Shown one piece after another: positions 54,745 through 62,212 of a stretch of 64,000 nt of DNA. The stretch comes from Candidatus Poribacteria bacterium (lineage in GTDB: Bacteria; Poribacteria; WGA-4E; WGA-3G), in assembly GCA_022828145.1 (NCBI GenBank), contig JAJEJA010000104.1, positions 1-64,000 of the forward strand, in the 5' to 3' direction. How positions within the stretch are numbered: the first letter of the stretch is position 1; every line of letters starts with the position of its first letter. The position numbers and the translations under genes were made by a program. The notes beneath the pieces are model-generated. The model made no database searches. It saw only the letters and a list, made by a program, of their open reading frames with translations, and was not told the origin of the DNA.

Positions 54745-55554
54745 ATGCTTACACAAAATCAGGTTGACACATTTCTTGAGAAAGGTTTTCTTCTCGGTAA
54801 TCGTGTGTTGACAGATGAACAAGTTGAAGAATTACGGTCAGAATTAGCACGGGTTATTGATGACTATGAAAAAGAAGATGTTGCACAACCTGTGCGAATT
54901 GCGAATCTCGGTGGACGGGAAGAAAGTCCTGTCTGGCAGATTGTGAATATCTGGGAGGCGAGTTCGGCTTACCAAGAACTGATATATAATCCTGTCATCG
55001 TAGAAGAAATTGGACAGTTGACATCCGCAACAGAGGTTCGCGTCTGGCACGACCAAATTCAATACAAACCGCCCCAAATTGGTGGTGTCAACTCATGGCA
55101 TCAGGATTCACCACTATGGGGTATCCTCATGCCAAAAACGAGTCAGGTAACCGCATGGGTGGCTTTGGATGACGTTGATGAAGGCAACGGTTGTATGAGA
55201 ATGGTGCCGGGTTCCTATAAATGGGGACCGCAGATGCCTTTTTTAGGTTCTGTCGGGGACATCCATAAAATGCATGACTACTTTGAAGATAACAAATTGT
55301 CTGTTGAACTTTGTCCTGTTCCGAAGGGACACGTCCATTTTCATCATGCATTAACTTGGCACGGGTCGCACGATAACGCAAGCGATGCAGCACGACGCGC
55401 TATTGCAGTACACTATATGACAAGCGAAACAGTCTATTATGAGACTGGTAATCACCTTATGAAGCAATATGTTACTGTAAAGGATGGCGATAAATTGGAA
55501 GGGGATCACTTTCCTGTTGTAATGGCGGAAGGGGTACCTACACAGAAAACATGA
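54745..55554 (+). CDS. Phytanoyl-CoA dioxygenase (PhyH) family protein, copy 3
   Basis: A 269-residue Fe(II)/2-oxoglutarate oxygenase with H119-Q-D121 (WHQDSPLWG), GCMRMVPGSYKWG as core strand, and the distal His in ALTWHGSHDN followed by the Arg in DAARRAI. Start from the AGGAG site, promoter directly upstream. It lies 65 bases before a TPP enzyme gene on the same strand and may act in the same pathway. Confidence 0.9.
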   Translation: MLTQNQVDTFLEKGFLLGNRVLTDEQVEELRSELARVIDDYEKEDVAQPVRIANLGGREESPVWQIVNIWEASSAYQELIYNPVIVEEIGQLTSATEVRVWHDQIQYKPPQIGGVNSWHQDSPLWGILMPKTSQVTAWVALDDVDEGNGCMRMVPGSYKWGPQMPFLGSVGDIHKMHDYFEDNKLSVELCPVPKGHVHFHHALTWHGSHDNASDAARRAIAVHYMTSETVYYETGNHLMKQYVTVKDGDKLEGDHFPVVMAEGVPTQKT

Positions 55555-58085: not shown

Positions 58086-58721
58086 ATGAAAAATACATGT
58101 GCAATTTTCGACCTTGATGGAACGCTTATCAGCAAATCTTCCGAAAAGGTTTTCCTAAAACACTTATTGAGTCATGGGGAAATACCTGTTTCTAATTTGC
58201 TTGCGTGGACATCGCATTTTTTGAAGGTCAGGTCATATCCAAAGGCAAAATCAAACAAAGTTCATTTACGCGGTTTGGACCAGAGTCATCTATGTAGTCT
58301 TGCCCAGGAGTGTTTTATCAATTCACTTCGGGCAAGTATTACGCCCCGTATATCGGCATTGATACAAACGCATCGTGATGAAGGCCGGACAGTCATTCTT
58401 ATGTCTGGTTCTTTGTCGTTTCTTGTTGAGCTGTTTCATGAACATCTTCAGACAGACATTATGATAGCAGATGAGTTAGAGGTCGTTGATGGAAGATTCA
58501 CAGGCAAGAGGGTTGGTATTCGTCCTTATGCGCAGAACAAGGCTGCCCTTGCTAAGGACCTTGCATCAAGGTATGGGTTTGACTTAGAATCCTCTTATGC
58601 TTATGGCAACCATCATTCAGACGTCTACAAGCTTGAATTGTTTGGAAATCCTGTAGCAGTAAATCCTAATCGCTTGCTTCGTAGAATTGCGACAGCGCGA
58701 AGATGGCAGATTGAATTGTAA
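58086..58721 (+). CDS. HAD-IB (SerB-like) phosphatase
   Basis: A 211-residue HAD phosphatase of subfamily IB, which includes phosphoserine phosphatase and its relatives. The nucleophile motif is IFDLDGTLI (D9, D11), motif II is VILMSGSLSF, and the metal motif GNHHSDVYKLEL takes the place of GDSxSD. The helical cap is in the middle. The start has no clear ribosome binding site; 21 bases follow the LamG stop. Confidence 0.83.
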   Translation: MKNTCAIFDLDGTLISKSSEKVFLKHLLSHGEIPVSNLLAWTSHFLKVRSYPKAKSNKVHLRGLDQSHLCSLAQECFINSLRASITPRISALIQTHRDEGRTVILMSGSLSFLVELFHEHLQTDIMIADELEVVDGRFTGKRVGIRPYAQNKAALAKDLASRYGFDLESSYAYGNHHSDVYKLELFGNPVAVNPNRLLRRIATARRWQIEL

Positions 58722-58741
58722 CAATAGATGTAGTCATAAAA

Positions 58742-59488
58742 GTGCGGCTTGAAAAATATATCGCTACTTCAGGTATCGCCTCCCGTAGAGCTGTGAAACG
58801 CGCAATCCGGGAGGGACGTGTTACCGTTAATGGTATTAAGGTTGTTATCCCTGGACACCCAATAGATGTAGAAAGAGATGCTATTGAATTTGATGGAGAA
58901 CTTGTTGAACCGTTAAATGAACGGCTCTATGTCATGTTGAACAAACCGTCAGGTTATGTAACAACCCGAAAGGATGAACGTGGTCGTCCCACTGTGATGG
59001 ATCTGTTAGGGGATCTACCCCGATCTATCTATCCAGTGGGACGTCTGGATTTGGAGACTGAAGGTCTGCTGCTTTTTACGGATGACGGTCATTTTGCCAA
59101 TAGGATGATGCACCCCAGCCATGAGATTGAAAAGACATACTATGCTTGGGTAAAAGGTGTTCCAACTGACCCTGCAATTAACCGTTTACGTAAAGGCGTT
59201 GCTATTCCCAGTGGAATGACATCTCCAGCGAAAATAAAACGACTAAAGACCGAGCATGTTTCTATACCAAGTGGTAGGAAAAAGAAGAAAAGAGTGGAGA
59301 TTGTATCAAAATTCCGGGTGATCATCCACGAAGGGAAGAAACGGCAGGTGCGTTTGATGTTTAAGGCGGTTGGACATAGGGTAATTCGTTTGAAAAGGAC
59401 CCGTGTTGGAAACTTAGAATTGGGCAATCTCCCGCAGGGGCAGTATCGTTTTCTGACCCCTACGGAAGTAGCCAATTTGCAAAGTTAA
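58742..59488 (+). CDS. rluB: Pseudouridine synthase, RsuA/RluB family (GTG start)
   Basis: A 248-residue rRNA pseudouridine synthase. The N-terminal S4 RNA-binding domain reads MRLEKYIATSGIASRRAVKRAI, and the catalytic Asp103 is in VGRLDLETEGLLLFTDDG. The C-terminal KKKKRVEIVSKFRVIIHEGKKRQVRLMF matches the family's RNA-binding end. The start codon is GTG at 58742. It overlaps the next, convergent gene by four bases. Assignment to RluB among RluB/E/F/RsuA is not certain. Confidence 0.85.
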   Translation: MRLEKYIATSGIASRRAVKRAIREGRVTVNGIKVVIPGHPIDVERDAIEFDGELVEPLNERLYVMLNKPSGYVTTRKDERGRPTVMDLLGDLPRSIYPVGRLDLETEGLLLFTDDGHFANRMMHPSHEIEKTYYAWVKGVPTDPAINRLRKGVAIPSGMTSPAKIKRLKTEHVSIPSGRKKKKRVEIVSKFRVIIHEGKKRQVRLMFKAVGHRVIRLKRTRVGNLELGNLPQGQYRFLTPTEVANLQS

Positions 59489-60624
59489 TTGTCGTCTTCA
59501 GTCGTGTCTGCTTCCGCAGCTAACTGTTTGACTCTTTGGATCGCACTTTGTGCGCTCTGCTTCATCCGTTCATTAGCGGTGTGCTTCATCAACTTTTCAA
59601 GTACTTCAATTGATTTGTCAAAATCACCTGTCAGTGAATACGTAACACCCAGATAATATTGTGCAGTTTCAAAGTCTTTGCTATCTGGGTATTTTTCAAT
59701 GACACTTTGGAAGTGCAGGACAGCATTTTTTCCATTTTTTACAGCGTCTTCTCCCGAACTATTTTGAATCATACCTGCGTAAGTGAGGCCGATTTTCAAG
59801 TGTAGAGCAGGAAGAAATCCCATCGTATTGTCGGGATCTTTATCTAAGACCTTCTGACTATATGGAAGTGCCTTCTCAATCTGTCCTCGGTTTAGGTGTG
59901 TCATTGCAAATTCGTTATTTAGTTTCACATCGTCAGGCATCATTTCGCTTATTTTAAGTGCCTTCTCGATTTCATTTTTGCTGAGATAGAAGATACCGAA
60001 TTCTCGGTTCAGATCCATATCATCAGGCATCATTTCACGAATCGGTTCAGCTTTCTCAATTTGGTGCCGTTGGATATAGAGAATTGCGATTTCACGGTTT
60101 AGTTTAACATCATCAGGCATCTTTTTCAGTTTTGCTAATTTCTCCTGAAATGTCTTCTCTTTTTTCAACGTTTCTTGCATCACGGGTAAGAATGTCTCAG
60201 GTGGCGCGTATCCACGATGATGTGTAATTAGACCCCCATCCGGACTTACAAAAAGGATTGCGGGATAGCCTCTAACGCCAAACTTCTTGCCTGTTTCCGC
60301 ATTGATGGGTTGTTCTTTGATTTCTGGATTAACTTTGACTGTAATGAATTTATCAGAAAGAGTGATAACATCTGCGTTGGTGAAGGTGTCGGCATCCAGC
60401 CGCTTACACCAGCCTCACCAATCTGTATAGAAGTCCATCATAACCGGTTTACCGGTTTCAGCAGATTGTTTCATTGCATCTTCAATAGACGTTCCCCATT
60501 TGACTTGTGCCTTTTCCGCTTCTGGTGTGTCTTGTGCGATTGCAGGCATAGCAAGGGCGATCATCAAGAGAATTGCAAGTCCAGTCAGATATGTGCCGTG
60601 TCGGTAGAAAACAGAATTAAACAT
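59485..60624 (-). CDS. Selenocysteine-containing thioredoxin-TPR exported protein (TGA read as Sec)
   Basis: A 379-residue protein if the in-frame TGA at 60417-60415 is read as selenocysteine. It has a good AAGGAG site, a signal peptide cleaved near AIAQ, then a thioredoxin-like domain whose motif is W-Sec70-G-W-Cys73-K-R-L, exactly where relatives have WCGWCKRLD; KFGVRGYPAILF carries the cis-Pro. From about residue 160 come TPR-like repeats of 28-35 residues (MPDDVKLNREIAILYIQRHQ). Without recoding, only 69 residues ending in DFYTDW would be made. A SECIS-like hairpin follows the TGA. Probably a periplasmic disulfide or reductase factor. Confidence 0.85.
60385..60417 (-). promoter_or_regulatory. 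Bacterial SECIS-like hairpin next to the TGA
   Basis: Just after the TGA, GGTGT (60410-60406) pairs with ACACC (60389-60385), then, past an AAG bulge, CGGC (60402-60399) pairs with GCCG (60393-60390), leaving the loop TGGAT. The loop starts 16 bases after the TGA and has G as its second and third base, which fits the bacterial SECIS rule of a guanosine at the start of the apical loop at 16-37 bases. Confidence 0.75.
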
Positions 60625-60781
60625 TAATTCTCTCCTTATTTAGGGACGATAAATGAGAGTGTCTAAACACCTTGATAAACGTTTTGAACAGAGACACAAT
60701 CAGTATCGTTTCTGTAATTATTTACCATAATACCATGTTTTTTGTAGATTGTCCAGAAAAAAGCAAGATTATATAATTTTC

Positions 60782-60803
60782 GGTGCGATAGGGTTATTGC
60801 ACC
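60782..60803 (-). terminator. Weak stem-loop after mnmE
   Basis: GGTGC (60782-60786) and GCACC (60799-60803) pair, with four more weak inner pairs around GGGT. On the minus strand a T-run (TTTTTT) follows only about 20 bases later, so termination is uncertain. The rest of the gap 60625-60823 shows nothing else. Confidence 0.4.
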
Positions 60804-60823
60804 TACCGGCCTGGGAATTAGGT

Positions 60824-62212
60824 TTACTTGCCAACACAGAACTGTGAGAAGATTCTGTCTAATATATCCTCTGTTGTGGTCTTACCGACGATGTCGCCAA
60901 GAGCATCCAGACTGATACGGATGTCAACTGAGACAAGGTCGGGAGGCATCTCATTTTCTAAACTGGTCATAACATCATTAAGTGCTTCATGTGATCTTCG
61001 TAAAGCGTCGTAATGTCGTGTGTTCGTTACTATTGGGGATTCACCCAGTGTAAATTCTCCACTGAGGAATTCATCGCGAATTGCAGTTTTCAACGTGTCA
61101 ATTCCCTTTCCTTCAGTAATTGCGGTCTGAATAATCCGCGTTTTGGGGGAATGTTCTGTTAAGACATGCTGTTGTAGTATAACAGGTAGATCTATTTTGT
61201 TTAGAATAAGAATTGTGTGATGGGAATTGGCAATTTGCAGCAATTCAATGTCGGCATCGTTCATAGTTTGCGAGGCATCAAACATGAGTAGAAGAAATTC
61301 TGCCTTTCTGAGAACATTACGACTTCTTTCTACACCTTGCTGTTCTACAATATCGTCCGTGTGTCGTATTCCTGCCGTATCAATAAGGTTTATCGGTAGA
61401 CCGTCTATGTTTATGGTCTCGTGGATTGTGTCTCGCGTCGTACCTGGTCTATCTGTGACAATGGCACGAGAAGTTTCAACGAGTGCGTTGAATAGGCTGG
61501 ATTTCCCGACATTCGGCTTACCCAAGATAGCAACATTGACACCATCTTTTATCAGACGTCCTTCCGAAGCAGTTTTGATTAAATGTTCAATATCTTTCTG
61601 AAGAGTTCGGACAGTCTGTAGTTGAATATCGGTATGCATAAAATCAAGGTCTTCATCGGGAAAATCGATAGAGGCTTCAACTTCTGCTAACAGATTGGCA
61701 AGTGTGTCACTGAGTTGGTTCACATGTTCTGAGAGTTTACCTGAAAGTGTATCAATTGCGATTTTTCTACTGAGTTCTGTTTTAGCACTAATCAGTTCAG
61801 TTACAGCCTCTGCTTGCGCGAGGTCAAGTCTGCCATTTAGAAAAGCACGTTTTGTAAATTCCCCTGGTGCGGCAAGTCTTGCGCCTGCCTTGACGACTAA
61901 GTCTAATACGTTGGCTAAAGTGACAATACCGCCATGGCAGTTAAATTCCACGATATCTTCAGTTGTATAGGATTTTGGTGCACGCATGATACCGAGTAGG
62001 ACTTCGTCAACAACTTCATCTGATGCAGTTGTATCTATAATATGTCCGTGTGTGAGTGTATGTGTTGGAAGTTTGTCTGTTGAGACTGTTTGTGAGGGAC
62101 GGAACAGTTGAGATGCGATCTGAATTGCCAGCGGACCACTGACACGAACTATTCCGATGCCACCTTCTCCGCGAGGTGTTGCTATGGCAGCGATGGTATC
62201 ATCAAGATGCAT
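60824..62212 (-). CDS. mnmE: tRNA uridine-5-carboxymethylaminomethyl modification GTPase MnmE
   Basis: A 462-residue GTPase that with MnmG modifies the wobble uridine of tRNAs. N-terminal formyl-THF-binding domain (DTIAAIATPRGEGGIGIVRVSG), helical domain with FTKRAFLNGRLDLAQAEAV, and the Ras-like G domain: G1 GKPNVGKSS, G2 TTRDTI, G3 DTAG, G4 NKID. The C-terminal CVGK carries the conserved Cys. It follows jag and yidC in the canonical order. Confidence 0.96.
   Translation of the reverse strand: MHLDDTIAAIATPRGEGGIGIVRVSGPLAIQIASQLFRPSQTVSTDKLPTHTLTHGHIIDTTASDEVVDEVLLGIMRAPKSYTTEDIVEFNCHGGIVTLANVLDLVVKAGARLAAPGEFTKRAFLNGRLDLAQAEAVTELISAKTELSRKIAIDTLSGKLSEHVNQLSDTLANLLAEVEASIDFPDEDLDFMHTDIQLQTVRTLQKDIEHLIKTASEGRLIKDGVNVAILGKPNVGKSSLFNALVETSRAIVTDRPGTTRDTIHETINIDGLPINLIDTAGIRHTDDIVEQQGVERSRNVLRKAEFLLLMFDASQTMNDADIELLQIANSHHTILILNKIDLPVILQQHVLTEHSPKTRIIQTAITEGKGIDTLKTAIRDEFLSGEFTLGESPIVTNTRHYDALRRSHEALNDVMTSLENEMPPDLVSVDIRISLDALGDIVGKTTTEDILDRIFSQFCVGK

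Follow-up and report, generated by a model that had tools for sequence, protein, structure and literature searches.

In the 64,000 nucleotides of a Candidatus Poribacteria genome that were analysed (the window), one gene on the reverse strand very probably codes for an exported oxidoreductase with selenocysteine (Sec) at the catalytic N-terminal position of a U-G-W-C motif. Judged by sequence comparison, this thioredoxin-TPR (Trx-TPR) protein is well supported as a real selenoprotein, a new one of a known kind. It adds an order-wide conserved selenoprotein to a largely uncultured phylum. The points of interest are its order-wide conservation, the fusion to TPRs, the variable dipeptide in the active site, and a SECIS spacing held in common with one type of selD. 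The features of the gene are collected in Table 1.

Table 1. Features of the Trx-TPR gene in window positions; (-) is the reverse strand.
Feature	Position	Strand	Remarks
Thioredoxin-TPR selenoprotein gene	59485..60624	(-)	379 codons + TAA stop, single in-frame TGA
AAGGAG ribosome-binding site	60632..60637	(-)	7 bases 5' of ATG, read from the sequence
Probable signal peptide, residues 1-31	60532..60624	(-)	by eye; low-confidence helix 15-22 in the model
Thioredoxin-like domain, residues 43-151, DsbD-gamma/DsbH-like	60172..60498	(-)	Pfam PF13098, PF13899, PF03190; Foldseek
Sec codon TGA, residue 70	60415..60417	(-)	sequence and homologue alignment
Resolving Cys codon TGT, residue 73 of U-G-W-C	60406..60408	(-)	invariant in alignment A2
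Core SECIS hairpin CGGC-TGGAT-GCCG	60390..60402	(-)	starts 13 bases after TGA; 99.2% of cells paired
Extended imperfect hairpin GGTGT-AAG-CGGC-TGGAT-GCCG-ACACC	60385..60410	(-)	lower stem partly conserved, 74.8% of cells paired
cis-Pro codon, residue 121 of GYP	60262..60264	(-)	P121 invariant in alignment A2
TPR helices, residues about 170-374	59503..60117	(-)	Pfam TPR models; AlphaFold helices 173-374

The frame starts with ATG, has a TGA as codon 70 and then stays open for 309 codons up to a TAA. Around the TGA the product reads DW-U-GWCKRLD, with U at the first cysteine of the CGWC of homologues. The sequence-only reading, made before any database search, had proposed this frame with its AAGGAG start, a signal peptide, and a TGA at the first-Cys position of a thioredoxin motif. 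The frame was confirmed from the ATG through all 379 codons to the TAA, as were the open stretch past the TGA, the cis-Pro of GYP and the TPRs (model matches within residues 157-355). Homologues do carry CGWC at the site, and the N-terminus, by eye, reads like a signal peptide. Standard annotation would cut the gene at the UGA, and the product would then be taken for a fragment of 69 residues next to a TPR protein. The place of the UGA, 69 codons past the start and soon after the signal peptide, would also permit its use mainly as a selenium switch, giving a short exported stub without selenium and the full protein with it. However, any Sec gene could behave in this way and nothing specific here suggests regulation; we consider such a switch very unlikely.

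The UGA is followed by a hairpin, CGGC-UGGAU-GCCG, which spans bases 13-25 after the codon. A distance of 16 bases between TGA and hairpin had been claimed in the sequence-only reading; this is exact for the start of the TGGAT loop but does not hold for the core stem, which begins at base 13. The element lies directly after the UGA and has a small, G-containing apical loop, which is given as a feature of bacterial SECIS elements in the accessible part of PMC1088965. In 31 aligned sequences the four core pairs form 30, 31, 31 and 31 times; one sequence has 3 pairs and one has the loop UGGAC, and otherwise the loop is of the UGGAU type. In two of the sequences (L029 and L031) a G-C pair has become A-U, through a change of Arg CGG to Gln CAG together with a silent change of Ala GCC to GCT. 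As these two are sisters in the tree, the double change may be one event. When the nine-pair structure was compared with 500 shuffles, its covariation score was reached by 3 of them and its percentage paired by 6. At least as many pairs with changes in both partners were seen in 50 of the 500, so that covariation is suggestive, not strong.

Codon usage in the core is the stronger support for the hairpin. Where the consensus residue is present, Arg is encoded by CGG in 28 of 28 cases, Leu by CTG in 30 of 30, Asp by GAT in 29 of 30 and Ala by GCC in 28 of 30, the two Ala GCT exceptions being the compensating rows (30 rows were used; one of the 31 is incomplete and was not counted). For six neighbouring frames of the window the corresponding figures are 15 of 115 Arg codons for CGG, 27 of 187 Leu codons for CTG, 79 of 120 Asp codons for GAT, and 22 of 150 Ala codons for GCC. 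The Thr codons two and four places past the core Ala vary freely, with all four codons in use. These comparisons identify the hairpin as a conserved RNA element. In many relatives the lower stem is disrupted, and it was rejected as part of a universal SECIS, with 74.8% of cells paired versus 99.2% in the core, and RNAalifold keeps the core only.

Fold energy was computed for 54 bases from the codon, with means of -14.1 kcal/mol for 32 Sec rows versus -10.3 for 79 Cys rows; since the two overlap widely and composition was left uncorrected, we rely on the codon lock and the pairing. From this comparison onward, near-copies were removed (L048:4228, L049, L050, L051, L053); L048:2514 was counted in it and omitted from alignment A1. 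Pieces lacking the motif column, which were scored as a gap and include those of L011, were left out of the alignment. When the window was compared with Rfam, no model reached its gathering threshold.

The Trx-TPR protein was searched for in 84 genomes of the phylum at a threshold of 1e-20. It has a match in 72 of these, and for all 72 the matches include one with a single TGA that spans residue 70 (counted by hand). The order contributes 71 of its 72 genomes, and the remaining match is G048, from another family of the same class. In 41 of the 72, the TGA was read within the motif itself (29 from L009-L038, 11 from L190-L200, and G048). U is found in all 37 Poribacteria rows of the motif table, in the forms UGWC, UGYC, UGFC, UGAC, UYWC, USWC, UDFC and UPAC. 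TGC or TGT in other assemblies of the same species had been named beforehand as an observation that would speak against Sec; neither codon occurs at this position among the Poribacteria copies with a motif that was read (the 37 rows, L190-L200 and L202). The closest homologues in named records are likewise from Candidatus Poribacteria (L048-L053), with proteins that are 76-91% identical. In G048, the UGGAU loop is retained but the core is reduced to 2 of its 4 pairs. At 1e-20 the gene was not found in G009, a genome of the same genus that is 95% complete and has the Sec machinery, nor in 9 of the 10 class genomes outside the order, nor in either of the other two phylum genomes. One of the gene-less genomes outside the order, G037, has the Sec machinery.

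The gene was compared with five relatives, and in every case dN falls below dS on either side of the TGA. With the nearest of them, dN/dS comes to 0.064/0.147 over the 69 codons before it and 0.047/0.313 over the 309 codons after it. Purifying selection is thus indicated on both sides by these sequence comparisons, which is at odds with a pseudogene or a true stop. That the TGA is a real stop, leaving a pseudogene or a 69-residue exported peptide only, would accord with its role elsewhere in the window, where it ends other genes (beyond their TGA, the frames at 54745 and 62915 stay open for only 8 and 6 codons). Yet a one-TGA match is present in 72 of 72 matching genomes, selection preserves the protein past the TGA, and the adjoining hairpin codons are locked, and we see hardly any likelihood of a real stop. 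A sequencing or assembly error that hides a true TGC or TGT might be suspected in a draft of 123 contigs, but this is refuted by the TGA in independent genomes of many species, among them the single-contig genomes G010, G031, G079, G081, G082 and G083.

Several additional copies and relatives were observed. In one genome (G006:C130:19813-22567, L010 and L048) two Trx-TPR copies are adjacent, both with TGA and with the motifs UGWC and UDFC. In G003, G004, G007, G008 and G013, second matches are located on separate contigs. A second-copy fragment at a contig end (L201, G074:C55) has the sequence SRSPRYRLDA, in which the motif contains no Sec and no Cys, and is either an edge error or a decaying copy. 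A distant, 30%-identical relative within the order (L203, G034:C6:52500-56500) has Cys, in the motif CYWC. Its frame of 799 codons combines what we take to be an ECF sigma factor with the thioredoxin domain and TPR-like sequence, so that it is a Cys-containing relative of the protein described here, linked to what looks like a transcription factor.

In the homologues fetched from other phyla the TGA column holds Cys, a comparison that had been proposed together with the initial Sec assignment. All 79 aligned rows, from 74 loci among the best 80 of 192 relatives, have TGC or TGT. The peptide patterns with which genome contigs were scanned for homologues included FYTDWCGW and hence demanded Cys codons. 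Because the scan favoured Cys and the rows are from the best 80 of 192 relatives, the result shows the pairing of Sec with Cys and not an absence of Sec outside Poribacteria, and the strict WCGW of the rows from other phyla is partly due to selection by the scan pattern. In a tree of 111 rows, which has few columns and contains long rows (L202, L203 and L110 among them), 30 of the 31 Sec rows cluster together (support 94/99), surrounded by Cys homologues. The remaining one, from G048, does not join this cluster with support, so that the tree fits one or two origins of Sec alike. Most likely, Sec took the place of Cys no later than the base of the Poribacteria order and has been retained since.

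The complete machinery for Sec is present in the same genome, a draft of 5.06 Mb in 123 contigs with a completeness of 94.3%. The initial reading had named four genes to be looked for, and all were found above their cut-offs: selA (593 bits, cut-off 268), selB (354 bits, cut-off 242), selD (370 bits, cut-off 125) and tRNA-Sec (75.7 bits, cut-off 47, anticodon tca). Its interpretation as a selenocysteine-containing exported redox protein with TPRs is now supported by these genes, by the conserved UGA, by the Cys homologues and by the hairpin. On one contig, selB ends 95 bases 5' of the tRNA-Sec. The order at this locus (L158, G000:C64:66500-75290) is lepA-like, signal-peptidase-like, selB, tRNA-Sec, the first two being our presumed names. 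ARAGORN found no tRNA within the window; the Sec genes are located on other contigs. A genome-wide reassignment of UGA, for example to Trp or Gly, with no role for selenium (codes of this kind exist in some bacteria) is extremely improbable given frames of 544, 462 and 617 codons in or next to the window that have no internal TGA, other frames that end with TGA, and the complete Sec system.

The machinery was surveyed with curated cut-offs in 39 genomes, the present one and 38 relatives. Above cut-off were selA in 33 of the 39, tRNA-Sec in 35 and selD in 35, and each of the 35 selD genes (the one from the present genome included) has one in-frame TGA. Among the 39 genomes, selA did not exceed its cut-off in G004, G007, G011, G021, G036 and G038, tRNA-Sec in G004, G011, G017 and G029, and selD in G011, G014, G026 and G038. 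Among carriers of the Trx-TPR gene, one component is missing above cut-off from G007, G021 and G036 (selA), G017 and G029 (tRNA-Sec), and G014 and G026 (selD); two are missing from G004 (selA and tRNA-Sec) and three from G011 (selA, tRNA-Sec and selD). Completeness is 73% for G011, 81% for G004, and 92-96% for G007, G014, G017 and G026, and the selA of G036 is cut by a contig end. We assume that the missing components of gene carriers are draft gaps or missed matches. The search for selB covered G000, G009, G037, G038 and G048. G048 has selB and tRNA-Sec, and G009 has selA, selB, tRNA-Sec and a Sec-type selD. In G038 there is no selA, no selB or selD above cut-off and no Trx-TPR copy; its two tRNA-Sec matches are borderline (48.1 and 47.0 bits).

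The best Pfam match of the protein is PF13098 (56.5 bits, gathering cut-off 27), and PF13899 matches around the TGA with 53.8 bits (cut-off 27); PF03190 is also above its cut-off. AlphaFold2, run with an alignment of 22 rows, gave a model with a mean pLDDT of 89.9 and a pTM of 0.75. When the thioredoxin part was compared with the PDB by Foldseek, DsbH (2ju5) and the C-terminal domain of DsbD (1uc7, 2fwg and others) ranked first, while the remainder of the model matched TPR superhelices. A phmmer search of PDB sequences returned disulfide isomerases, DsbD and thioredoxins. The predicted structure combines a thioredoxin domain of the DsbD-gamma/DsbH-like kind with TPR helices. Because of the structure matches and the probable signal peptide, recognized by eye, an envelope thiol-disulfide oxidoreductase is the best reading, and this points to the use of selenium in what would be the cell envelope of Poribacteria.

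Both the conserved hairpin and the full Sec machinery support an insertion of Sec at this UGA: SelB with Sec-tRNA would bind the small hairpin just 3' of the UGA, and Sec would be inserted instead of a stop. The protein would then be exported, and the selenolate of Sec70 would attack disulfides of envelope proteins. By analogy with DsbD-gamma-like domains, Cys73 may resolve the mixed selenosulfide, and the TPRs may dock partners or clients. Export, the direction of the reaction, the electron donor and the clients are matters of inference.

None of the 15 NCBIfam models listed reaches its cut-off with the Trx-TPR protein. The likeness to the DsbD gamma domain lies in the thioredoxin fold (Foldseek TMt 0.67-0.77, 24-26% identity). 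That domain has Cys where the Trx-TPR protein has Sec. Unlike DsbD, the protein has no membrane domain and has TPRs following its thioredoxin domain, and with the DsbD model (NF001419) it scores 58.7 bits versus a cut-off of 330, the C-terminal domain alone matching. DsbH/DUF255 thioredoxins, which have a Cys active site, resemble it in the top Foldseek match (2ju5), in PF03190 and weakly in NF043050. However, the score with NF043050 is 39.5 bits versus a cut-off of 190, and 2ju5, with 144 residues, is too short for TPRs.

Closer in their use of Sec are the thioredoxin-like selenoproteins, of which a 2026 review of prokaryotic selenoproteins (PMC13188914) names many, TsoB and Trx7/PDZ among them, in its accessible part. 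The best NCBIfam match is TsoB (NF045694), a selenoprotein resembling a rhodanese/DsbD fusion (E 2.1e-21, profile positions 437-570 of 572). Its last domain alone matches, with 75.6 bits versus a cut-off of 805, and its motif, according to the same part of the review, is UxxxxU versus UGWC here. The Trx7/PDZ selenoprotein (NF041199) likewise belongs to a selenoprotein family with a thioredoxin-type domain, but the score is only 25.4 bits (cut-off 300), it has a PDZ domain where TPRs are found here, and its motif is given as CxxU in the accessible text of the review, here UxxC. UxxC thiol:disulfide interchange selenoproteins within PF13098 have already been published, as the available part of PMC13188914 reports, and the present protein resembles these in its best Pfam match and in its UxxC motif. 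Compared by description, the table row on this selenoprotein (representative WP_011366075.1) in that part of the review lists neither TPRs nor Poribacteria.

Poribacteria are known from marine sponges. According to the accessible part of PMC5649159, most bins of sponge symbionts, which belong to various phyla, contain SelA together with SelB. In the literature searched, in which subscription papers are thinly covered, we found no described selenoprotein of Poribacteria, and the accessible literature on TPR selenoproteins or on selenocysteine in sponge symbionts, with the same thin coverage, yielded no Trx-TPR selenoprotein. The word Poribacteria is absent from the main text of PMC13188914 as far as this is accessible, and in the accessible part of PMC9999580 selenocysteine occurs in the reference list only.

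The selD gene of this genome has its own in-frame TGA and reads KCAG-U-ASK. At 30 selD loci (L157, L161-L189) the hairpin was compared with that of the Trx-TPR gene, and the spacing is equal in 21. These 21 have the stem GCTC (18) or GATC (3) and the loop CGGGN, with all four pairs formed, one of them with a G-U pair. The other nine read AGTC-CAGTT or CGGTC-GGAC/GGGC and form only two of the four pairs in that register; by eye they fit a stem of five pairs and a loop of four bases, displaced by one position (AGTCC-AGTT/GGTC-GGACT-like). Like the Trx-TPR gene, selD codes for a selenoprotein, and its hairpins are of two types, the second fold being assigned by eye. Describing the Trx-TPR and selD hairpins by one common covariance model was given up because MAFFT placed gaps between the two sets. 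To a wider reading we give even chances: that the order depends on an exported Sec-containing Trx-TPR protein fixed before its divergence, and that a SelB code of UGA, 16 bases and a five-base GG loop, shared by at least two unrelated genes (Trx-TPR and one type of selD), fixes synonymous sites beside the active site and could predict the selenoproteome of the phylum. The sequence set offers numerous natural versions of a single SECIS, at a constant distance from the UGA, and is useful for studying target recognition by SelB.

A scan of the genome with the pattern TGA-N15-CYGGRTG gave 29 matches versus 6 for the reversed pattern. As the pattern was derived from the Trx-TPR gene and selD, the scan shows specificity and is not an independent discovery, and it would miss selenoproteins with other loops. 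All four stem pairs form in 5 of the 29: the Trx-TPR gene, selD, L220 and two sites whose open stretches are no longer than 12 codons ahead of the TGA and 8 behind it. L220 (G000:C61:98762-98786) has a perfect GTTC-TGGGT-GAAC, with 32 codons open before the UGA and 117 after. Neither part has a Pfam match and, by eye, it resembles a decayed oxidoreductase gene with a frame broken in several places; its hairpin is therefore taken as probably due to chance.

Within positions 58700-62212 of the window, the Trx-TPR gene lies between a convergent frame that we take to be rluB-like, the ends of the two overlapping by 4 bases, and a presumably mnmE-like gene. Tests with presumed motifs of the two genes on 41 loci with 1.5 kb flanks detected mnmE at 28 and rluB at 29 of them, and at least one of the two at 35 of the 41.
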